Source: Sporohalobacter salinus
GTDB taxonomy: Bacteria; Bacillota; Halanaerobiia; Halobacteroidales; Acetohalobiaceae
NCBI RefSeq assembly: GCF_016908635.1
Contig: NZ_JAFBEG010000001.1
Coordinates: forward strand, 124,001-188,000
Length of the DNA stretch: 64,000 bases
Direction: 5' to 3'
Shown: positions 7,030 to 18,505 of the stretch, piece by piece
Layout of the letters: each line of letters starts with the position of its first letter
Position numbering within the stretch: position 1 is the stretch's first letter
Translations under genes and position numbers: made by a program
Notes under the pieces: generated by a model
The model's input: only the letters and a program-made list of their open reading frames with translations
What the model was told of the DNA's origin: nothing
Databases searched by the model: none

Positions 7030-8209
7030 TAAAGGTTATTTTGGAGAGTTCGGTGGTAGATATGTACCGGAAACTTTAATGGCTGCTTTGGATGAATTAG
7101 AAGCAGCTTATGAGAAGTATAAAGAAGATAATGAATTTCAGGCTGAGTTGGAATCTTATTTCAAAGAGTATATAGGACGGCCATCATCGCTATATTATGC
7201 TGAACGATTGACAGAAAAGTTAGGTGGAGCCAAGATTTATTTAAAACGAGAAGATTTGAATCATACCGGAGCACATAAAATCAATAATACTATCGGTCAG
7301 GTATTGTTAGCTAAACGAATGGGTAAAAAGAGAATTATTGCTGAAACTGGAGCTGGTCAACATGGAGTAGCAACGGCTACAGCAGCTGCTCTCTTTAATT
7401 TAGACTGTGAGGTTTATATGGGAGCAAAAGATATTGAACGTCAGAAGATGAATGTTTTTAGAATGGAATTGTTAGGAACTAAGGTTGTTCCTGTTGAATC
7501 TGGTTCAAAAACTCTAAAGGATGCTACTAATGAAGCAATTAGAGACTGGGTAACTAATGTAGAAGATACTCACTATATTATCGGTTCAGTAGTTGGTCCT
7601 CATCCTTATCCGGAATTAGTTAGAGATTTTCAAGCGGTAATTGGTGAGGAGACGAAAGAACAAATTATGAAACTGGAAAATAGACTGCCTGATTATTTAA
7701 TAGCCTGTGTTGGTGGCGGTAGTAATGCTATGGGACTCTTTTATCCTTTTGTTGATGATAAAGAAGTAGAGATGATTGGAGTTGAAGCTGCTGGATTAGG
7801 ACTGGAAAGTGGAAAGCATGCTGCTTCATTAAATGCTGGCAGTAAAGGAGTTTTGCATGGATCAATGTCTTATATATTACAAGACGGAGATGGTCAGATT
7901 ATACCAGCTCATTCTATTTCGGCTGGTTTAGATTATCCAGGTGTGGGTCCAGAGCATAGTCATTATTTTGAAACAGGGCGGGCTGAATATAAATCTATAA
8001 CAGATGAAGAAGCTTTATATGGTTTTCAGTTATTATCTGAGACTGAAGGGATTATTCCGGCTTTAGAGAGTGCTCATGCTGTGGCTTATTTGAGTGAATT
8101 AGCACCTGAATTGGATTCAGACGAGATTATAGTACTTAACCTTTCTGGAAGAGGCGATAAAGATGTAGAAGCAGTGGCCAAAAGATTGGAGGGGGCGGCT
8201 AATGAATAG
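7019..8209 (+). CDS. trpB: tryptophan synthase beta chain
   Basis: This PLP enzyme condenses indole with serine to tryptophan. The 396-residue protein is the common TrpB1 form: the PLP lysine lies in [10 protein letters not shown] (Lys87), GGGSNA binds the cofactor phosphate, and ETGAGQHG is the carboxylate-binding loop. It overlaps trpF by 11 bp and trpA by 8 bp and works as an alpha2-beta2 complex with TrpA. Confidence 0.98.
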
Positions 8210-9005
8210 AATTGAAAAGAAGTTTAAACAATTAAAAAAACAGAAGCAGACAGCTTTAATGCCTTATATTACTGCTGGTGATCCAACATTGGATTTTAGT
8301 AAGAAATTAATTAAAGAATTAGAAGCAGCGGGAGCTGATATGATTGAATTGGGAGTTCCTTATTCTGATCCTTTAGCTGATGGCCCAACGATTCAACAAG
8401 CAGCACAACGAGCTTTATCAGCTGGAACTGATCTTGAGCAAATATTTGATTTAATCGAAGAGGTAAGAGCAGAAATAGAAATTCCAATTATTTTAATGGG
8501 ATATTATAACTCTTTTTATAATTACGGTTTAAAAGAAATAGTTTCTAAAGCAGAAACAGTAGGAGTAGACGGTTTAATTATACCTGATTTACCACCTGAG
8601 GAAGCAGAAAAGATGGATAAATTTAAAAGCGGAGATCAGTTAAGTAGTATATTTTTATTAGCGCCGACGAGTTCTGAAAAGCGAATGGAATTAGTTAATA
8701 GACAGAGTGATGAATTTATCTACTGTGTTTCTACGTTGGGGGTAACTGGAGCTAGAAGTAAATTATCCTCTCAATTACAGAACTTTTTAACTAAAGTGAG
8801 AAAGTATAGTGATTATCCTTTAGCAGTTGGATTTGGCATTTCTACTCCCAAGCAGGCAGTTCAGGTAGCTGAACATGCTGAAGGTGTTATTGTTGGTAGT
8901 GCCGTTATAGATAGAATAGCTGATAATTTAGAACAAGAAGAAAAGGTAATATTAGAAGAAGTAAGTAGTTTAGTTAAGAATATGAAAGAAGCTCTTAATG
9001 GATAA
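8202..9005 (+). CDS. trpA: tryptophan synthase alpha chain
   Basis: TrpA cleaves indole-3-glycerol phosphate and channels indole to TrpB. The 267-residue barrel has the two catalytic acids in the expected places, Glu49 ([10 protein letters not shown]) and Asp60 ([10 protein letters not shown]), plus GFGIS and GSAV phosphate-binding motifs near the C-terminus. It is the last gene of the trp operon and is followed by a hairpin. Confidence 0.98.
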
Positions 9006-9037
9006 AAAAGATTATAATTAAAGATTTAATTTTGTAG

Positions 9038-9070
9038 TTAGCCCCGATAAAAATATCGGGGCTAATTGGA
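9038..9070 (+). terminator. trp operon terminator
   Basis: A 12-bp perfect stem (TTAGCCCCGATA at 9038-9049 with TATCGGGGCTAA at 9054-9065) and AAAA loop lies 32 bp after the trpA stop. The T-tract is weak (TTGGATTT), so termination may be partial. Confidence 0.75.
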
Positions 9071-9164
9071 TTTATAATTTTGTTTTTAAGTAATTGTTAT
9101 TATGTTTATGAGAGGTAAGGGCGTCATGTAGTAAGCGAGACTTAGAGGAGATAAGTTGGTAAAA

Positions 9165-10424
9165 TTAGGAAAGATTATAATTAAATTTTCCTTCTTTAGT
9201 TTGTGAAAAGAAATCAGCATAAGTGAGATCAAAGATATTATTTAAATAGCCGCTGATATCGATTTCATCTCTAATTAGTCGGCCGATAACTCCAGCATTG
9301 GATATATCTCCCATTAGAATTGCTCCCTTGATGATGCCATTTTGATGAATTATTTTTTGATAAGTATTAGCGTTATTTTGAGTTTCTATCTGATAATTAT
9401 CATCGGGAGCTTCTGTCAGGCCGTAGCTAATAGTTGATACTCCAAAGAAACGCATAGAATTCTTAATTGCAAAGTTATTGACTAACTCACATTCAATTCC
9501 TACCATGTTATAGGCGGCTATTTCGCCTTGTTTTACTGCTGCTGGCCAGATTGGTGTTAACATTTTTTCTTTATTGAAAACTTCATAGGACTGGCAGACA
9601 TCACCAGCTGCATAGATATCTTTAATAGAGGTCTGCTGGCATTCATCGACTACAATTCCATCATTTACTTTAATATCTGTTTCTTTAACTAAAGATGTAT
9701 TAGGTTGTACTCCGGTAGCAACTACTACTAAATCTACATCAATTTTTTCTTCATTGTTGATTATAGCAGCTTTAACATTCTCATCATTATCTAGGATTAT
9801 TTCTGAAACTTTGCTATTAGTTTTAATGTTTATACCTTGCTTTATAAATAAGTCTTCATAAATTTTTGCTGCTGTTTTATCCAATTGAAGAGGTAAGATT
9901 GTTTCACCTAACTCTACTAGGGTTACATCAATGTTCTGAGAAACTAGACCAATAGCAGTATCAACTCCAACTAAACCGGCCCCAATAACTAAAACTTTAG
10001 TTTTTTTTCGGCTGGCTTCTTTAATTTTCTGGGCGTCTTTTAAATTTCGTAGGGTATAGATTTGCTTTCCGGTTCGTAGTCCTGGAATTGATGGAATAAC
10101 TGGAGAAGAACCGGTAGCAATCAATAATTTATCGTAAGGTATTTCTAGTCCTTTTTCTGTTATAATTGACTTATTGGATTCGTGAACTTCAATAATTTTT
10201 GTTCCTGGCTCCCAGTTAATATTATGTTCTTTCATAAATTCATCATCTATAAATCTAAGTTGGTCTCTGCTTCGTTCTCCGCTGATAAAATGGTGTAACA
10301 TACAGCGAGAATAGATCTCATCATCTTTAGCTAATATTGTAATTTGGCCATCGTTATCCAGCTGTCTAATATTTTGGGCAGCACTAATACCGGCAGCACT
10401 GCTACCAATGATTACATATTTCAT
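9165..10424 (-). CDS. FAD/NAD(P)-dependent oxidoreductase of the coo operon
   Basis: The 419-residue flavoprotein has an N-terminal FAD dinucleotide-binding fold (VIIGSSAAGISAA), the ATGSSP motif, a second Rossmann segment for NAD(P) (VLVIGAGLVGVDTA, about residue 150) and the YAAGDVCQ flavin motif near 275. It resembles NADH-dependent rubredoxin/ferredoxin reductases and NirB-like flavoproteins. It overlaps the CooF-like gene by 4 bp (ATGA) and is third in a CODH-like/ferredoxin/flavoprotein operon. The likely role is passing electrons between NAD(P)H and the ferredoxin. Confidence 0.85.
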   Translation of the reverse strand: MKYVIIGSSAAGISAAQNIRQLDNDGQITILAKDDEIYSRCMLHHFISGERSRDQLRFIDDEFMKEHNINWEPGTKIIEVHESNKSIITEKGLEIPYDKLLIATGSSPVIPSIPGLRTGKQIYTLRNLKDAQKIKEASRKKTKVLVIGAGLVGVDTAIGLVSQNIDVTLVELGETILPLQLDKTAAKIYEDLFIKQGINIKTNSKVSEIILDNDENVKAAIINNEEKIDVDLVVVATGVQPNTSLVKETDIKVNDGIVVDECQQTSIKDIYAAGDVCQSYEVFNKEKMLTPIWPAAVKQGEIAAYNMVGIECELVNNFAIKNSMRFFGVSTISYGLTEAPDDNYQIETQNNANTYQKIIHQNGIIKGAILMGDISNAGVIGRLIRDEIDISGYLNNIFDLTYADFFSQTKEGKFNYNLS

Positions 10425-10885
10425 TTTATCACCTTCTCTTTCATGTCAAGCTCGATTACTTTGATTGCTCCTGTAGGACAGTTTTCTACACATTGGGGTT
10501 GGTCGTCACCACACATATCACACTTTAATGTCCGCTCCTGTGAAGCTTTTTCGGGCATTACCATTCCATAAGAACAGGACATAACACACATCCAGCAGCC
10601 GACGCATTGCTTTTGATTACAGATGATATGTCCTGTTTTCTTGTCGCGGCTTAAAGCGCCAGACATACAGGCAGTAAGACATTCTGAATCCCGACAGTGA
10701 CGGCAAAAGAGTGGAACTACTTCATCATTATTATTCAAAACAATTTTATTACGGGCTTGATTGTTAATATCTGTTAGATTAAGATTGTGGATTGATTCAG
10801 CTTCACTATGTTGTAACATACAGGCTATAATACAATTTTTACAGGCTTTACAAGCTTCACGGTCAATATGAATTCTTTTCATCAT
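10421..10885 (-). CDS. CooF-like polyferredoxin
   Basis: The 154-residue protein has four four-cysteine groups, typical of the four-cluster [4Fe-4S] CooF/HycB/DmsB family: CKACKNC with IIAC near the N-terminus, CRHCRDSEC, CVGCWMCVMSC, and CDMCGDDQPQCVENCP. CooF accepts electrons from CooS and hands them to a partner, here most likely the overlapping flavoprotein. It lies 10 bp after the CODH-like gene. Confidence 0.92.
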   Translation of the reverse strand: MMKRIHIDREACKACKNCIIACMLQHSEAESIHNLNLTDINNQARNKIVLNNNDEVVPLFCRHCRDSECLTACMSGALSRDKKTGHIICNQKQCVGCWMCVMSCSYGMVMPEKASQERTLKCDMCGDDQPQCVENCPTGAIKVIELDMKEKVIK

Positions 10886-10895
10886 TTAGCCTCCT

Positions 10896-12779
10896 TTACA
10901 GACCGAGATTTTGGCGTCGGTCGATGATGATATCTTCTAATTCGTTGGCTGCTGTTGTCATATTTTCTTCGATAATTAACTTACCGCCAGTTAGATTCTC
11001 GATATCTTCAGTCAGCGTTTTAACTACTACTTCACTACCAGTTACAAAAGGCGGTAGAGCTAAATGTAACGGAAGTCCTAAGGTTAAACCAAAAGCACCG
11101 TCAGCTAAAGCCTGTTCTTCTAACCATTGAGGGGCAGATAGTACAACAGGTAATTGAGGAATATCAACTTCTAAAGCTTCAGCTAATTCTGAAACTACCA
11201 GTTCTAATCTACCTATAGCTAGACAAGGGCCGAAGTTAAGTACCGGAGGAATACCTAATTTTTCACAGACAGCTTGAAGATTATCGCCGGCTAATTCAGC
11301 AGCTTTTGGAGATACTAGACCGCAATTTTCTAAACCGCCTGTTGTACAGCCAGCCGAGAGCACAAGAATATCTCGCTTGATCAATTCTTTTGTTAGTTTT
11401 ACAGTAGAAATGTCATGGCCTTGAGCTGTTAGATTAGAACAGCCGACTACTCCAGCTACTCCTTTGATTTTACCTTCGGAAATTAAATCGATTAAAGGTT
11501 GGTAATTACCACCTAAAAATTCTCGCAGTGAATTTTCACTAATACCAGTTAAGGCATCATCATGGCCATGGTCTGAAGGAATATCAATTTCTACTTTATC
11601 CCTGCGGTTTTTATAGCTGGTAATAGCTTTTTCGATAATTTGGTCAGCAATTTCATCTGCTTCTTCAGGACTAAATTGTAGTTGTTCGGCATTAGCTTTT
11701 TTGGCTACATCATTGATACAGATCTGGGCTACTTCAAAATCCTCGGCTACTTCTTCTAAACCAGGGATAGTACAATTAAATTCAGATACTACCAAATCAA
11801 TACCACCAGTAGCCAAAATTGCTTCACTGGTAAAGTTATTTCCAGCATGCCCAGCAAATAATTTTTGATAATGTTCACTCCGGAGTTGATAATCCTGTCC
11901 CACACAGGTACATCCAATTAATTTAAAGCCCTTAGCTCCTGCATCTTTAGCTTTTTGTTGAACTTTTTCTTTAATTAACTTATCTTGTAATGCTGCAAAT
12001 AGAGAATGTTGATGACCAGTAGGCATAATATTGATGTAATCAGGATTAATTGTTCTTAGTCCAACTTGATCTTGCCTAATTTCTGGTGATCCCAGCAAGA
12101 TATCATTTAATTTATTTGTTAGTGTTAAGCCGTAAACTCCAGTAGCAATACCTAAGCTTAAAGCATGCATTAGCATATCGGATGGATCACTGGATAGATT
12201 AGTACTAGTTTTAACTATAGCATCAAAAACTTCAGATTTGGCTCCGCCAGGCAAAATATCGAGTTCAGACCAAGTTTTATAGCGCGGTTCGATTACTAGT
12301 TCTTTTGTTAATTCCATTTCATCAAATCGAGGCTTATATAAGTCAGATAGAACTTTGTCAGCTACTTCGATGGCTTTTTGGTTTATATCTTCTGTTTTAA
12401 CATCAAAAATTTCTGCTAATTGATTTAAAGTATCGATATCCTTAATCTTGGTTTTATAATTACCTTTTGCTGCTTCTTTAAGATTGCGAGCTGTATTTTC
12501 AATTACGTGTAAGTAACATCCGGCTCCTGCTGCCACTGAACGTAGAAAGTTGCGTGCTACGATTGTATCAGCATTAGCTCCACAGACTCCTTTAGGAGAA
12601 TCAGGAGTGATTCGACAAGGACCATTGGAACATAATCGACAGCAGACGCCCTGTAATCCAAAACCACATTTAACTGACTGTTGTGGTTCGCGATTAAAGG
12701 AAGTTTTTACTTCTGGTTTACTTTTTAAAAAGTCACCTAACTTTTCATCGGCAGTGTTACAGATTTCACATGAGTTCAT
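10896..12779 (-). CDS. CooS-type carbon monoxide dehydrogenase homolog lacking catalytic acid-base residues
   Basis: The start is ATG 12779, which follows GAGGAGG (12789-12795); an in-frame TTG at 12797 overlaps that site. The 627-residue product aligns along its length with Carboxydothermus CODH-II. All Fe-S ligands are present: D-cluster Cys38 and Cys46, B-cluster Cys47, 50, 55, 66, and C-cluster His256, Cys292, 336, 447, 478, 519. The CO-chemistry residues are not. The segment with His93 of CODH-II reads GAGCYLHV, giving Tyr89, and the following histidines of the proton path are Val, Asn and Arg. Catalytic Lys563 is Gln556 (EEQALAD versus HEKAVAI). HGHNP is GHQHS and GSCVDNSR is GPCLAIGR. 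It belongs to the family but probably catalyses something other than normal CO oxidation. It is cotranscribed with cooF-like and flavoprotein genes. Confidence 0.85.
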   Translation of the reverse strand: MNSCEICNTADEKLGDFLKSKPEVKTSFNREPQQSVKCGFGLQGVCCRLCSNGPCRITPDSPKGVCGANADTIVARNFLRSVAAGAGCYLHVIENTARNLKEAAKGNYKTKIKDIDTLNQLAEIFDVKTEDINQKAIEVADKVLSDLYKPRFDEMELTKELVIEPRYKTWSELDILPGGAKSEVFDAIVKTSTNLSSDPSDMLMHALSLGIATGVYGLTLTNKLNDILLGSPEIRQDQVGLRTINPDYINIMPTGHQHSLFAALQDKLIKEKVQQKAKDAGAKGFKLIGCTCVGQDYQLRSEHYQKLFAGHAGNNFTSEAILATGGIDLVVSEFNCTIPGLEEVAEDFEVAQICINDVAKKANAEQLQFSPEEADEIADQIIEKAITSYKNRRDKVEIDIPSDHGHDDALTGISENSLREFLGGNYQPLIDLISEGKIKGVAGVVGCSNLTAQGHDISTVKLTKELIKRDILVLSAGCTTGGLENCGLVSPKAAELAGDNLQAVCEKLGIPPVLNFGPCLAIGRLELVVSELAEALEVDIPQLPVVLSAPQWLEEQALADGAFGLTLGLPLHLALPPFVTGSEVVVKTLTEDIENLTGGKLIIEENMTTAANELEDIIIDRRQNLGL

Positions 12780-12849
12780 GATTAAATTCCTCCTCAAATT
12801 ATTAGTTCACCATTTTAGTATACTTTAACTTAAAAAAAGAAGGGTGAGA

Positions 12850-13266
12850 TTAATCCATTTCAGCCAAAGTTTTAAAGTCATATTTGGAAAATTCTTTAGC
12901 TAATACATCACTGATTGAGTTAAAGATATGGTGGATTACACAATGATCGGTGGCATCGCGATTACAAGCATCGGTATCGAGTTGACATCGATTGACTACT
13001 AAATCTTTTTCTATAGTTTCGATAACATCTTTAAGGGTGATTTTTTCTGGTTTTTTAGCTAGCTTATAGCCGCCGTGTTTACCACGATAAGATTCTATAA
13101 TTCCTGCTTTGATTAATTTTCTGCAAATTTTAAGTAAAAATCTTTTAGGAATTGTTTGGTCATCGGATATAACTTGAGCTTCTACTATTTCCCCTTCTTT
13201 TTTTGCTAGAAAGAGCACCGCTCTAATCGCATAATCTGTTTCTTGGGTTAATTGCAATTTTCTCAC
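12850..13266 (-). CDS. Rrf2-family transcriptional regulator, probable Fe-S sensor
   Basis: The 138-residue protein has the Rrf2 winged helix (LTQETDYAIRAVLFLA, then GKHGGYKLAKKPEKITLKDVIETIE). It also has three cysteines spaced C-x6-C-x7-C (RCQLDTDACNRDATDHC, about residue 94 on), as in the IscR/NsrR cluster-binding group. Such proteins sense iron-sulfur status, NO or redox. GTG 13266 is listed as start; TTG 13257 (MQLTQETDYAIR) resembles family N-termini better and is possible. It lies 70 bp before the CODH-like gene, in the same direction, and probably controls it. Confidence 0.88.
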   Translation of the reverse strand: MRKLQLTQETDYAIRAVLFLAKKEGEIVEAQVISDDQTIPKRFLLKICRKLIKAGIIESYRGKHGGYKLAKKPEKITLKDVIETIEKDLVVNRCQLDTDACNRDATDHCVIHHIFNSISDVLAKEFSKYDFKTLAEMD

Positions 13267-13284
13267 CTAACTTTCTTTATGTTA

Positions 13285-13342
13285 GCTTAAGTATACCATT
13301 TAAGTACAGTTTAATTATAAATAATAGATTTTAGTTTGTCAA
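13285..13342 (-). promoter_or_regulatory. promoter of rrf2-coo operon with candidate operator
   Basis: On the minus strand TTGACA (13342-13337) and TATAAT (13319-13314) are 17 bases apart, a perfect consensus. Just downstream, TACTTAA occurs twice with 7 bases between (about 13290-13310). A related GTATACTAAA lies upstream of the CODH-like gene near 12817. These are candidate Rrf2 binding sites; the match is by eye only. Confidence 0.65.
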
Positions 13343-13423
13343 GGATTTTATAAAAGATGGGCGAAGATTATTAACTAAATTTTTTGGAATAGTAGAGTTG
13401 AAATTTAGTCATTGTATGGTATA

Positions 13424-13472
13424 ATTATGGACAGCATAGGTTGGATTTCTATGCTGTCCATAATTTGTTTTT
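13424..13472. repeat. 16-bp perfect inverted repeat, hairpin 1
   Basis: ATTATGGACAGCATAG (13424-13439) pairs without mismatch with 13449-13464 around a 9-base loop and is followed on the plus strand by TTGTTTTTT. It lies in a 531-bp gene-free stretch between rrf2 and accD. A TTGAAA (13398)-N16-TATAAT (13420) promoter-like pair overlaps its left arm. It could be a terminator without an obvious upstream gene on the plus strand, a small-RNA element or an operator. Confidence 0.6.
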
Positions 13473-13518
13473 TGGTTTTATATAATATAGGGGAATAAAT
13501 GTATATTAAGAATATTTC

Positions 13519-13560
13519 TATGGGCAGTATAATGTACATTATGCTGCCCATAATTTTATA
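13519..13560. repeat. second inverted repeat, related to hairpin 1
   Basis: A 16-bp stem (13519-13534 with 13537-13552, one G-T pair) is followed by TTTTATATTT. Its arms share TATGG(A/G)CAG(C/T)AT with hairpin 1, so the two are diverged copies 95 bp apart. The remaining sequence to accD (13561-13797) is AT-rich and shows no convincing gene. Confidence 0.6.
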
Positions 13561-13797
13561 TTTGATGTTTGCTAGTTAAAAAGTTATAATTATAATAATG
13601 TGGATAACTGTTATATGTTTAGTAGATAAAAGTTGAGTAGGAATTAAAAATTGAATACCTGGATATAATATTATAAGTATTGTCTATGGAGATAACGTAA
13701 ATAACACCTAACTATAAAATTGTATTAAAATTAAGACAATCAACTATTATTTTATTTATAGTTATAATGTTAGAGTTGTAAAAGAGGGGTGAATTAA

Positions 13798-14697
13798 ATG
13801 TTCAAGGATTGGTTTGGCGGTAAAAAATCTAAATATGTAACAGTTAAAAGACAGAAAGAAAAGGATAAAGATAAACAAGATAAGAAGGAAAAGGGAAAGA
13901 TAACAGAAGAATTATGGACAAAATGTAAAGACTGTGGAGAGATTATATTTAATAAGAAGTTAGCTCAAAATTTAAAAGTTTGTTTAGAGTGTGGTTATCA
14001 TTTTCGATTAAATGCTCAGGAACGATTAAATATGTTAGTTGATGAAGGTGAATTTAAAGAGCATAATAAGGATTTAAAAACAACAAATCCATTAGATTTT
14101 CCTAATTATGAAAAAAAGTTGGAAAAGTATCAAGAAAAAACTGGCTTAGATGAAGCTGCTGTAACGGGTGAAGCTAAAATAGGTGGTCATAAGGTATTAT
14201 TAGGTATTATTGATGCTAACTTTTTAATGGGTAGTATGAATTCAGTTGTAGGTGAAAAAATTACTCGAATAATTGAGGAATCGCTAGATAAAGAGCTGCC
14301 TCTTATAATTATTTCTGGGGGCGGAGGCGGTGCCAGAATGTATGAGGGAATGTTATCATTGATGCAGATGCCTAAAACAAGCCTTGCTCTTTCTAGATTA
14401 GAGGAAGCGGGGCAATTATATATATCTGTCTTAACTGATCCAACTTATGGAGGAGTATCGGCTAGTTTTGCTTCCTTAGGTGATATAATCATTGCTGAGG
14501 CCGATGGAAAGATTGGTTTTACTGGACCCAGGGTTATTAAACAGACGATTAATAAGGATTTACCTGATGGTTTTCAGACTTCAGACTTTCAGTTAGAACA
14601 TGGTATGGTAGATAAAGTAGTAAATCGACAGGAAATGAAGGATATATTGGTTAGAATTTTAGATATTCATAGTTTGCGAGGTGAGCTAGATGCCTAG
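13798..14697 (+). CDS. accD: acetyl-CoA carboxylase carboxyltransferase beta subunit
   Basis: AccD with AccA transfers CO2 from carboxybiotin to acetyl-CoA, giving malonyl-CoA for fatty acid synthesis. The 299-residue protein has a lysine-rich N-terminal stretch, the four-cysteine zinc ribbon CKDCGE...CLECGYHF (about residues 41-64) and the crotonase-type carboxyltransferase fold (SGGGGGARMYEG, GGVSASFA, GFTGPRVI). It overlaps accA by 8 bp. The biotin carrier and carboxylase (accBC) are not in the window. Confidence 0.97.
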   Translation: MFKDWFGGKKSKYVTVKRQKEKDKDKQDKKEKGKITEELWTKCKDCGEIIFNKKLAQNLKVCLECGYHFRLNAQERLNMLVDEGEFKEHNKDLKTTNPLDFPNYEKKLEKYQEKTGLDEAAVTGEAKIGGHKVLLGIIDANFLMGSMNSVVGEKITRIIEESLDKELPLIIISGGGGGARMYEGMLSLMQMPKTSLALSRLEEAGQLYISVLTDPTYGGVSASFASLGDIIIAEADGKIGFTGPRVIKQTINKDLPDGFQTSDFQLEHGMVDKVVNRQEMKDILVRILDIHSLRGELDA

Positions 14698-15664
14698 TAA
14701 TAATTTAGAATTTGAAAAACCATTGTTGGAATTAGAAGATAAGATTAAAGAATTAAAGCAGTTTATGCAGGAAAAAGATATAGATTTAACTGATGAGATA
14801 GAAAATCTAAAAAATCGTGCAGCTAAATTAAAGGAAGAAATTTATGATGAATTGGAGCCATGGCAGATACTGAAGTTAGCTCGACATGCTAATCGTCCTA
14901 CTACTATGGACTATATTGATTTGATTTGTGATGATTTTATCGAGTTACATGGCGATAGAAAATTTGGTGATGACCAGGCTTTAATAGGTGGTATAGGCAA
15001 GATAGGATCCTTACCTTTGACTATTATTGGTCATCAGAAAGGGAAAAATACTAAAGATAATCTCAATCGCAATTTTGGTATGGCCCATCCAGAAGGATAT
15101 CGAAAAGCATTGCGGCTGATGAAACAGGCTGAAAAGTTTAATCGTCCTATTCTATCTTTAGTCAATACTCCAGGTGCATTTCCTGGAATTGGAGCTGAAG
15201 AGCGCGGTCAGGCTGAAGCTATAGCCTATAATATGAGAGAAATGGCTAGCCTAGAGGTGCCAATTATTGTAATTATCACGGGAGAAGGTGGTAGTGGTGG
15301 CGCCGTTGGTATTGGAGTTGGAGATAAGGTAATGATGATGGAATATGCATATTATTCCGTCTGTTCTCCTGAAGCTTGTGCTGCTATTCTTTGGAATGAT
15401 GCGGCTGAAGCTAAAACAGCATCTAAAGCATTAAAGCTTACTGCTGAGGATTTATTGGAATTAGGGATTATAGATGAAATAGTTGCTGAACCAGCAGGTG
15501 GTGCTCATAAAGACTTTAATGAGAGTGGCAAATTGCTAAAAGAAGCTGTTTTAGATAGCTTACGGGAGATTCAACAGTTATCAGTTAAGGAAATGTTGGA
15601 TCAAAGGTATAATAAATTTAGACGAATTGGGGAATATATAGAAGAAGGAAGTAATAATGAATAG
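14690..15664 (+). CDS. accA: acetyl-CoA carboxylase carboxyltransferase alpha subunit
   Basis: The 324-residue partner of AccD begins with a charged helical region (residues 1-55) and continues with the carboxyltransferase domain: ARHANRPTTMDYI, ELHGDR, GHQKGKNTKDNL, NTPGAFPGIGAEERGQ and GEGGSGGAVGIGVGD. Gene order accD-accA-pfkA-pyk is the same as in Bacillus. Confidence 0.97.
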   Translation: MPSNNLEFEKPLLELEDKIKELKQFMQEKDIDLTDEIENLKNRAAKLKEEIYDELEPWQILKLARHANRPTTMDYIDLICDDFIELHGDRKFGDDQALIGGIGKIGSLPLTIIGHQKGKNTKDNLNRNFGMAHPEGYRKALRLMKQAEKFNRPILSLVNTPGAFPGIGAEERGQAEAIAYNMREMASLEVPIIVIITGEGGSGGAVGIGVGDKVMMMEYAYYSVCSPEACAAILWNDAAEAKTASKALKLTAEDLLELGIIDEIVAEPAGGAHKDFNESGKLLKEAVLDSLREIQQLSVKEMLDQRYNKFRRIGEYIEEGSNNE

Positions 15665-15697
15665 AAAGTTGAATTGATATTGTCAGGAGGGAACTAT

Positions 15698-16696
15698 ATG
15701 AATAAGATTGGTGTATTGACTAGCGGTGGTGATGCTCCAGGAATGAATGCTGCTATTAGAGCAGTAGTCAGAAAATCTATTTATGAAGGTCTTGAAGTAA
15801 TAGGTATTAAGCGAGGGTATGCAGGTGTTATTGAAAGTGATTTTAGGGTGATGAACCGCGGTTCTGTAGCTGATATTATCCATCGTGGAGGAACTACTTT
15901 ACATTCAGCTCGGTGTGAAGAATTTAGAACTGAAGAAGGACGTAAAAAAGCTATTGAACAATTAAAATATGGTGGTATTGAAGGATTAATAGTTATTGGA
16001 GGAGATGGTTCTTTTAAGGGGGCTCAATTACTTAGTGAAGAATCTGATATTAAGGTGGTTGGAGTACCTGCTACTATAGATAATGATATTGCTTGTACTG
16101 ATTATTCTATTGGATATGATACAGCACTGAATACTGTTTTAGATGCTATTAATAAAATTAGAGATACAGCCACTTCTCATGAAAGAACCTTTGTAGTAGA
16201 GACTATGGGAAGACATTCTGGTTTTTTAACTTTAATGTCTGGGTTAGCTGGTGGAGCAGAATCAATTTTAGTACCAGAGATAGATTTTAGTCTTGAAGAG
16301 GTATGTGAAAAGTTGAATCATGGTTATGACCGTGGTAAATTACATAGTATCATTTTAGTTGCAGAAGGGATTGAGCAAGACTTTGCTTCAAATAATGATG
16401 TTAATGAAAGTCAAGCTTTTGCAATAGCAGAAGAAATTAGTAAAAGAACTGGCTTTGAGACGAGAGTTACTATATTAGGGCATCTACAACGCGGTGGAAT
16501 TCCTACTGCTCGAGATAGAATTTTAGGCAGTCGTTTAGGTGCATCAGCTGTAGATTTGTTATCAGAAGGTGAAACTAATAAAATGGTAGGAGTTATTCAT
16601 GATGAGGTTAAAAGCTTTCCAATTGAAGAATCTTTAATTAAATCTAAAGATCTAGATAAAGACATTTATAAATTAGCTAACATTTTATCATTGTAA
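15698..16696 (+). CDS. pfkA: ATP-dependent 6-phosphofructokinase
   Basis: It phosphorylates fructose 6-phosphate, the committed step of glycolysis. ATG 15698 (MNKIGVLTSGGDAPGMNA) follows AGGAGGG; an in-frame ATG-like start upstream at 15674 would precede that site. The 332-residue protein has GGDGSFKGA (a glycine after the GGD, typical of ATP-using enzymes), PATIDNDIACTDYSIG with the catalytic Asp, and LGHLQRGG. Confidence 0.97.
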   Translation: MNKIGVLTSGGDAPGMNAAIRAVVRKSIYEGLEVIGIKRGYAGVIESDFRVMNRGSVADIIHRGGTTLHSARCEEFRTEEGRKKAIEQLKYGGIEGLIVIGGDGSFKGAQLLSEESDIKVVGVPATIDNDIACTDYSIGYDTALNTVLDAINKIRDTATSHERTFVVETMGRHSGFLTLMSGLAGGAESILVPEIDFSLEEVCEKLNHGYDRGKLHSIILVAEGIEQDFASNNDVNESQAFAIAEEISKRTGFETRVTILGHLQRGGIPTARDRILGSRLGASAVDLLSEGETNKMVGVIHDEVKSFPIEESLIKSKDLDKDIYKLANILSL

Positions 16697-16750
16697 AAAA
16701 ATAGTATTTTAATTAATATGATTTACTGAAAGTAAAGGGGGAAAAAGAAG

Positions 16751-18505
16751 ATGAGAAGAACAAAGATTGTATGTACTATTGGCCCTGGTAGTGATGACAA
16801 AGAAACTTTATCGCAGCTAATTGACGCTGGGATGAACGTAGCGCGAATGAACTTTTCTCATGGTAATCATGAGGAACATAAAGAAAGAATTGAAAGAGTC
16901 AGAGACTTAGCTGCTAAAAAAGAAAAGCCAGTTGCTATTTTACTTGACACTAAAGGTCCAGAAGTGAGAACAGGTGAGTTAAAAAATGATGAAGAAGTCA
17001 TGTTGGAAAAGGGATCAAAATTTACAATAACAACGGAAGAAATTGAAGGAAATAATAAGAGAGTATCTGTTTCTTATAAGAAATTGCCAGAAGATGTTGA
17101 AGTAGGAGGAACTATTCTTATTGATGATGGTTTAATTGAGTTGGAAGTAGATAATATTTCCAATACAGAAGTAGAATGCACAGTACTTAATGGGGGAAAG
17201 CTGGGATCACATAAAGGAGTTAATTTACCTGGAGTTTCTGTTAATTTACCTGCAATTACTGAAAAAGATGTAGCAGATATTAAGTTTGGAATTGAAATAG
17301 ATGTGGATTTCATTGCTGCTTCCTTTATTCGAAAAGCTTCTGATGTATTAGAGATTAAGCGTATTTTAGAAGAAGATGAGGCTGATATTAAGATTATTTC
17401 TAAGATAGAAAATGAAGAAGGCGTTGAAAATATTGATGAAATTATTGAAGTTTCCAGTGGAATTATGGTTGCTAGAGGTGATCTAGGAGTTGAAATTCCT
17501 ACTGAACAGGTACCGGCAGCTCAGAAAATGATGATTGATAAATGTAATGAAGAAGGTAAGCCGGTGATTACTGCTACTCAGATGCTTGACTCTATGATTC
17601 GTAATCCTCGTCCTACTAGAGCAGAAGCTAGTGATGTAGCTAATGCTATTTTGGATGGAACTGATGCTACAATGTTGTCAGGAGAGACAGCAATTGGTGA
17701 GTATCCAGTAAGAGCAGTAGAAACAATGGCTAATATTGCTCAGGAGATTGAAGAATCTGAACAGTATGCTAAGCAGATGACGCAGAAAAATATGGTGCCT
17801 CCTCGAACAGTTACAGATTCAATCAGCTATTCAACATGTGAGACTGCTCAGGATTTAGGAGCATCAGCAATTATTACTTCTACAAGCTCTGGTCATACTG
17901 CTCGTATGGTTTCGAAATATCGACCTTATCCTCCAGTTATTGCAGCTACACCGAATCCTAAGGTTTGCAAACAATTAGCTTTATCTTGGGGGGTTAAGCC
18001 TATATTAGTAGAAGATACTGATTCTACTGATGATATGTTTGAGGTTTCAGTTCGCGGTGCATTAGATGCTGGATATATTGACCTGGGTGATCTAATCGTC
18101 TTAACAGCAGGAACTCCTGTTGGTGTAGCCGGTACTACTAATCTACTTAAAGTACATATTGTTGGGGAAGCAATCGTACGTGGAACCGGAATTGGAAAGA
18201 CTGCTTCTAGTGGTCGAGTCTGTATTGCTGAAAATCCTGATGAAGCTAATGAGAAGATGGAAGATGGAGATGTATTAGTTACTTATAGTACTGATAAAGA
18301 TTTTGTACCAGCAATGGAAAAAGCTAAAGCTGTGGTTACTGAAGAGGCTGGTTTGACTTCTCATGCTGCTATTGTTAGTTTAAATTTAGGAGTTCCAGCA
18401 GTAGTAGGTGCTTATGATGCTATGGAAATGTTAGAAGATGGAGATATGGTAACTGTTGATAGTGCACGTGGTTTAATATACAAAGGGGAAGCAAATGTTT
18501 TATAG
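16751..18505 (+). CDS. pyk: pyruvate kinase with C-terminal PEP-utiliser domain
   Basis: It converts PEP and ADP to pyruvate and ATP. The 584-residue protein has the barrel motifs RRTKIVCTIGP, RMNFSHG, LDTKGPEVRTG, SKIENEEG, VARGDLGVE and TATQMLDSM. After about residue 480 it has the extra swivelling domain with TSHAAIV, as in Bacillus pyruvate kinase. It is the last gene of accDA-pfkA-pyk and a strong terminator follows. Confidence 0.97.
   Translation: MRRTKIVCTIGPGSDDKETLSQLIDAGMNVARMNFSHGNHEEHKERIERVRDLAAKKEKPVAILLDTKGPEVRTGELKNDEEVMLEKGSKFTITTEEIEGNNKRVSVSYKKLPEDVEVGGTILIDDGLIELEVDNISNTEVECTVLNGGKLGSHKGVNLPGVSVNLPAITEKDVADIKFGIEIDVDFIAASFIRKASDVLEIKRILEEDEADIKIISKIENEEGVENIDEIIEVSSGIMVARGDLGVEIPTEQVPAAQKMMIDKCNEEGKPVITATQMLDSMIRNPRPTRAEASDVANAILDGTDATMLSGETAIGEYPVRAVETMANIAQEIEESEQYAKQMTQKNMVPPRTVTDSISYSTCETAQDLGASAIITSTSSGHTARMVSKYRPYPPVIAATPNPKVCKQLALSWGVKPILVEDTDSTDDMFEVSVRGALDAGYIDLGDLIVLTAGTPVGVAGTTNLLKVHIVGEAIVRGTGIGKTASSGRVCIAENPDEANEKMEDGDVLVTYSTDKDFVPAMEKAKAVVTEEAGLTSHAAIVSLNLGVPAVVGAYDAMEMLEDGDMVTVDSARGLIYKGEANVL

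Follow-up and report, generated by a model that had tools for sequence, protein, structure and literature searches.

Does a protein that carries every metal ligand of a Ni,Fe CO dehydrogenase (CODH), but none of the residues known to handle CO, still work on CO? The question is raised by a cooS gene of Sporohalobacter salinus, found in the stretch of 64,000 nucleotides that is called here the window. It extends well beyond one genome: in hundreds of anaerobes, genes of the clade to which this one belongs (clade C) bear the annotation CO dehydrogenase and are counted accordingly in surveys of CO metabolism and in acetogen models. Among GTDB species genomes there are 406 related loci, the best 80 of which were read. 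The gene lies on the minus strand in the order rrf2, cooS, cooF, fnor, all in one direction, with the following features:

9165-10424, minus strand: FNOR, an FAD/NAD(P) oxidoreductase with Pyr_redox_2 and Rubredoxin_C domains, resembling the COG1251 type; its gene overlaps that of CooF
10421-10885, minus strand: CooF-like ferredoxin with Fer4_11 and related domains, 17 Cys
10896-12779, minus strand: clade C (group C-1) CooS homologue, about 627 amino acids from ATG 12779, with an N-terminal CxxC, a type II D-cluster and intact B- and C-cluster ligands
12806-12822, minus strand: putative operator 2, TATACTAAAATGGTGAA, one mismatch, in the rrf2-cooS gap
12850-13266, minus strand: Rrf2-family regulator (Pfam Rrf2, 1.1e-34) with C-x6-C-x7-C-x2-H
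13292-13308, minus strand: putative operator 1, TGTACTTAAATGGTATA, where transcription from the rrf2 promoter should begin
13314-13342, minus strand: sigma-A type promoter, TTGACA-17-TATAAT (12/12), in front of rrf2

The cooS reading frame is uninterrupted across 10896-12797. The longer ORF starts with a TTG adjoining a GAGGAGG ribosome-binding site (12789-12795), and ATG 12779 behind that site is the better start, so the coordinates and numbering of the sequence-only reading (Tyr89, Gln556) stand. Residues are counted here from ATG 12779; counting from the TTG adds six. The product scores 810 bits against TIGR01702, the anaerobic CO dehydrogenase catalytic subunit (cut-off 478), and matches the Pfam Prismane family. 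Its N-terminal Cys motif, MNSCEIC, is a CxxC (Cys4/Cys7).

Mapping onto CODH-II of Carboxydothermus hydrogenoformans bears out the initial claim that the D-, B- and C-cluster ligands are all present. The D-cluster is of type II (Cys38/Cys46, C-x7-CC), the B-cluster Cys set is complete, and so is the C-cluster motif of one His and five Cys (His256, Cys292, Cys336, Cys447, Cys478, Cys519). The His93/Lys563 acid-base pair of functional Ni,Fe CO dehydrogenases is absent; Tyr89 and Gln556 take its place, the latter as had been read. The other reported replacements in the proton path, His96 by Val92, His99 by Asn and His102 by Arg, are also real, but the last two deserve little weight: they vary even among 46 canonical CODHs, so that only positions 93, 96 and 563 are informative. 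The altered C-cluster surroundings, GHQHS and GPCLAIGR, are likewise as described, and there are further changes that had been missed: Asp219 to Thr213, His259 to Thr254, Ile567 to Asp560, Ser525 to Pro518 and Asp528 to Ala521. In addition, Gln332 of CODH-II corresponds to Asn335, and the position of Glu554 is occupied in canonical CODHs by Ser, His, Ala or Asn. The counterpart of Asn335 is Asn337 in CooS-V, and that of Glu554 is Glu556 in CooS-V and Glu494 in the hybrid cluster protein, HCP (PMC9311411). Compared with HCP, the window protein thus has the Glu and the Asn, with Cys292 and Gln556 at the Glu268 and Lys496 positions.

Tyr89, Thr213, Gln556, Pro518, Glu554 and Asn335 are found in all 98 distinct clade C sequences, and Asp560 in 97 of them; as Tyr plus Gln served to call the class, these two are invariant by definition, and the other columns are independent. 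Tyr, Thr213, Gln556, Pro518, Glu554 and Asp560 do not occur at the matching positions of any of the 46 canonical CODHs. The tree described below recovers the same group as the Tyr-plus-Gln call; within clade C, a single further sequence, from a MAG (L129), was seen to depart from Gln at that position. The invariance of Tyr, Gln and Pro518 in clade C, together with their absence from canonical CODHs, indicates that the substitutions are not due to chance. The second sphere of clade C is thus rebuilt beyond the published signature, which is new here. As to the active-site cluster, the sequence points two ways, the first-sphere ligands to a Ni,Fe cluster and the second sphere to one of the HCP/CooS-V kind.

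In an IQ-TREE phylogeny of 66 proteins, run with the CODH clades, the window protein lies inside clade C (SH-aLRT 100, on a long stem), in a branch that contains CooS of C. ljungdahlii. Clade C is monophyletic, apart from D, E and F, and is the sister of clade D (SH-aLRT 85), where CooS-V falls within D-1. Clade C has been defined by fully conserved C-cluster residues with His changed to Tyr and Lys to Gln, and by a type II D-cluster; FNOR, CooF and an NsrR/IscR-like regulator accompany its groups C-1 and C-2, and C-1 adds an N-terminal motif of two to four Cys (Inoue et al., 2019; PMC6344411). The window protein has all of these, namely Tyr/Gln, the C-cluster motif, the type II D-cluster, the N-terminal Cys and the operon context, and belongs, as a CODH homologue, to group C-1 of clade C. 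Its residue pattern was therefore already published in 2019, and the initial observation restates a known clade signature (PMC6344411).

The sequence-only reading had guessed at the clade of CooS-V, which the tree and the residues show to be wrong by one node. The kinship is visible in the structure model (pLDDT 89.3), whose best Foldseek match in the PDB is CooS-V (TM 0.94, with canonical CODHs at about 0.90-0.93), and in Tyr, Glu554, Asn335 and Asp560, which are common to clade D. The top match is expected, however, with clade D being the sister of clade C. CooS-V (clade D-1) has Cys295 changed to Glu, keeps the Lys and has a type III D-cluster (PMC6344411, Table 2). The window protein keeps the equivalent Cys292, has lost the Lys, has a type II D-cluster and belongs to a separate supported clade, and a separate D-1 gene is present in the same genome. 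Phylogenetic membership of CooS-V's hybrid-cluster group is thus refuted, and any such assignment is most improbable.

The electron-transfer partners of cooS recur across the clade. Among 90 clade C loci, a CooF-like gene lies downstream on the same strand in 63 and an FNOR gene downstream in 62. The other 28 have no nearby FNOR, and the majority of them consist of a bare pair of rrf2 and cooS, with no cooF (FNOR-less loci include L042-L045, L051-L054, L056, L057, L059 and L060). At the bare pairs the electron partner must be encoded elsewhere; no conserved partner was seen downstream of them. One clade C gene, 73% identical to that of the window, has an internal TAA (L008, G010:C14:14681-16558) and is either a pseudogene or a sequencing error.

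These loci bear on the suggestion, made for clades C and D together, that the proteins are redox sensors or regulatory subunits without physiological turnover (Bohm and Land, 2026; PMC13056359). The suggestion draws on co-occurrence and on regulator-rich operons (PMC13056359), and the 28 loci lacking an adjacent FNOR would fit it. However, roughly two in three loci carry CooF and FNOR, which implies electron flux, the invariant buried polar residues look catalytic, and a sensing role is already ascribed to the adjacent Rrf2. We consider a purely sensory protein improbable.

The rrf2 gene is listed from GTG 13266, although TTG 13257, behind AGGTGA, is the likelier start. The Cys/His signature of the regulator and the position of its gene are conserved across relatives, and Rrf2 is probably an Fe-S-binding member of the NsrR/IscR type. 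The motif TRYACYNANNNRGTRYA is found upstream of rrf2 in 33 of 56 relatives (mean 0.025 in shuffles). When up to one mismatch is allowed, 35 of 46 also have it in the rrf2-cooS gap (0 in shuffled gaps). Its spread covers Halanaerobiia, Clostridia, Desulfotomaculum-type bacteria and Propionigenium (Fusobacteriota). The positions of the operators suggest that Rrf2 acts as a repressor. In the whole S. salinus genome the motif of operator 1 occurs in two places, here and once among replication genes. A wider Rrf2 regulon, covering HCP, flavodiiron or similar genes, was rejected, since motif searches of 16 genomes led to hardly anything beyond the operon, with a few further sites adjoining unrelated genes. 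The picture that emerges, and that is new here, is of an apparently dedicated local regulator with two predicted operators and no other evident targets. Separately, the divergent rrf2/accD intergenic region holds two near-identical long inverted repeats with TTATGGRCAGYATA arms, at 13423-13465 and 13519-13552. The arm has no other exact copy in the genome, and the repeats are possibly paired operators or accD leader hairpins.

The gene content of the host is also informative. The source genome (2.68 Mb) has two CooS genes, that of the window and a D-1 gene of CooS-V type, on contig C20 near two HCP genes. No ACS and no canonical His/Lys CODH was found in it, and no convincing match to the maturase CooC, the best being a weak ParA-like protein (E 9e-5). 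Four other genomes (G007, G011, which is Orenia metallireducens, G012 and G030) are likewise without ACS, CooC and canonical CODH. In O. metallireducens a CODH remnant (with a TAG) and a CooC remnant lie side by side (C10:31152-31836), relics that are consistent with a recent joint loss of CODH and maturase. Among 45 named genomes with clade C, CooC is present in 27, each of which has a residue-checked canonical CODH; the other 18 have neither, and in 11 of these the clade C gene is the only CODH (Fisher p 6e-13, with kinship ignored). Clostridium puniceum and C. acidisoli have no CODH besides the clade C enzyme. According to Bohm and Land (2026; PMC13056359), clades C and D often accompany active CODHs. 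That clade C merely assists a canonical CODH is nevertheless not general, as the 18 genomes and the source genome have none. The persistence of clade C as the only CODH, in genomes with neither CooC nor a canonical CODH, is new here. It is no proof of a nickel-free cluster, because CooC is not strictly required: CODH-II can be made active without maturases (PMC13056359).

In locus L036 (G000:C20:18001-37800, 7567-18295) the D-1 gene of contig C20 lies beside an oleate-hydratase-like gene, followed by genes like those of the anaerobic sulfite reductase AsrABC and of a formate/nitrite transporter, by a pair of HCP genes, one of them short at 444 amino acids, and by an NADH-rubredoxin-reductase-like gene; the names other than CODH and HCP were assigned by eye. 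The locus is possibly an N/S-oxide stress island.

The view to which we incline, at just short of even chances, is that clade C-1 CooS is an NAD(P)H-fed stress reductase of a small N- or O-containing oxidant rather than a CO oxidiser. Rrf2 would repress the operon as long as its own Fe-S cluster is intact, and the loss of that cluster to O2, NO or Fe-S damage would lift the repression. FNOR would then take hydride from NAD(P)H, and electrons would pass through CooF and the D- and B-clusters to a cluster held by the six CODH-type ligands. There a small oxidant of the NO, hydroxylamine or peroxide type would be reduced in stress defence. The shift in chemistry may stem from the replacement of the CO-handling residues by Tyr89, Gln556, Asp560, Thr213 and Thr254, with the HCP/CooS-V-type Glu554 and Asn335 in place. 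Within the proposal, we are least sure of the substrate and of the chemical step. In a more specific version, put forward as a tentative and rather doubtful idea, the six unaltered ligands hold a nickel-free or otherwise remodelled Fe-S(-O) cluster, at which NAD(P)H would drive the reduction of a substrate of the NO, hydroxylamine or peroxide type.

Behind the stress-reductase view stand the clade placement, the second-sphere residues, the operon partners, the Fe-S-ligand-like Rrf2, the conserved operators and the persistence of clade C without CooC or canonical CODH. Published work on relatives adds to these. In C. difficile, CD0174-0176 rise by a log2FC of about 8 on sigma-B overproduction, cooS is listed among the oxidative/nitrosative stress genes, and CD0175/0176 are in the aerobic-stress set (PMC7494833). 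The C. ljungdahlii group C-1 operon is induced by O2, according to Whitham 2015 as cited in PMC6344411. C. autoethanogenum without acsA, whose remaining CooS enzymes belong to clades C and D (cooS1, in clade C by PMC13056359, and cooS2), does not oxidise CO in mixotrophic growth and releases it (PMC4895105). On the other hand, stress induction is no proof of stress chemistry, and in C. difficile the control is by sigma-B, unlike the Rrf2 control of the window operon. With hydroxylamine CooS-V itself is a very slow reductase, and its NO reduction did not exceed background (PMC9311411); the window protein has Gln556 in place of Lys496 of HCP; and the six Ni,Fe C-cluster ligands are kept, unlike in CooS-V. 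The earlier idea of a scaffold kept for another, HCP-like reaction thus survives in part: the acid/base residues are lost clade-wide, and Glu554 and Asn335 are common to hybrid-cluster enzymes, but the CooS-V clade is not the right one.

Further evidence against the stress reductase comes from T. kivui, whose CooS oxidises CO. For the purified CooSF1 the rate is 13.9 U/mg when methyl viologen is used and 0.5 U/mg when ferredoxin is, 15- to over 200-fold below AcsAB, and CO-grown cells lose 92% of their CO:MV activity when CooSF1 is deleted (PMC8683389); the protein was made in strain DSM 2030. This CooS has been assigned to clade C, as an early-branching member with an atypical operon (PMC13056359), and is 53% identical to CooS of C. 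carboxidivorans. The assignment agrees with the published T. kivui primers, the sole basis of our own comparison, which encode RDPKCGF and SAPQWL: 111 of 115 clade C proteins contain APQWL, against one of 53 others, and that one is most likely a partial clade C protein (L164). That the window protein is without CO chemistry, as was first suggested, is therefore not established, with CooSF1 oxidising CO and C. autoethanogenum with cooS1 in the absence of acsA failing to do so.

A slow but genuine Ni,Fe CO dehydrogenase is accordingly a serious, though not a favoured, possibility. A normal C-cluster served by another proton path would oxidise CO, or reduce CO2, and be linked to NAD(P) through CooF/FNOR, the role being to draw reductant from CO under O2 stress or to remove stray CO. 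Apart from T. kivui, it is in keeping with the full set of C-cluster ligands and with the rise of CO in the headspace of C. autoethanogenum lacking acsA, which its authors read as CO2 reduction (PMC4895105). The poorer growth on CO of C. autoethanogenum lacking cooS1 also leaves room for CO chemistry. However, the CO-handling residues are gone throughout clade C, net CO oxidation is missing in the acsA-less strain, some genomes have no ACS, CooC or other CODH, and T. kivui CooS is the early-branching, atypical case already mentioned.

Whichever reading holds, the CO dehydrogenase annotation of clade C is not to be trusted for function. Organisms with clade C only and no CooC offer a clean test of whether the C-cluster ligands are sufficient for a Ni,Fe CO enzyme or the surrounding protein decides the chemistry. 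If the version with a nickel-free or remodelled cluster is right, the CODH fold would have lost its CO chemistry once more, by second-sphere change alone where CooS-V needed a ligand change, and clade C would be a widespread CooC-free, Rrf2-controlled stress enzyme in anaerobes.

Comparison with known systems places the window protein as follows. From clade C of Inoue et al. (2019) there is no defining difference, the Tyr/Gln pair, C-cluster motif, type II D-cluster, N-terminal Cys and FNOR/CooF/regulator context being the same; what is added here are more second-sphere changes, the operators and the CooC-free occurrence. The operons of C. difficile (CD0174-CD0176) and of C. autoethanogenum and C. 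ljungdahlii cooS1 (L082, L098) share the order cooS-cooF-fnor, 64-66% identity and identical active-site residues, but have no adjacent Rrf2, and that of C. difficile is under sigma-B. T. kivui CooS (TKV_c08080) with CooF1 is alike in its clade, the SAPQWL of its primers and its downstream cooF, and differs in branching early, in oxidising CO and in having no adjoining FNOR or Rrf2 reported. CooS-V of C. hydrogenoformans, 36% identical, shares the CODH fold, the Tyr at His93, the Glu556/Asn337 counterparts and the Asp at Ile567, whereas its Cys295 is Glu, its Lys is kept and its hybrid cluster is demonstrated. CODH-II (clade F), 32% identical, shares the metal ligands and the fold but differs at His93, His96, Asp219, His259, Lys563 and Ile567. 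HCP, finally, has in common the Prismane superfamily, the Glu494-type Glu and the Asn beside the first cluster Cys, but has Glu268 and Lys496 where the window protein has Cys and Gln, and comes without the Rrf2-cooS-cooF-fnor operon.
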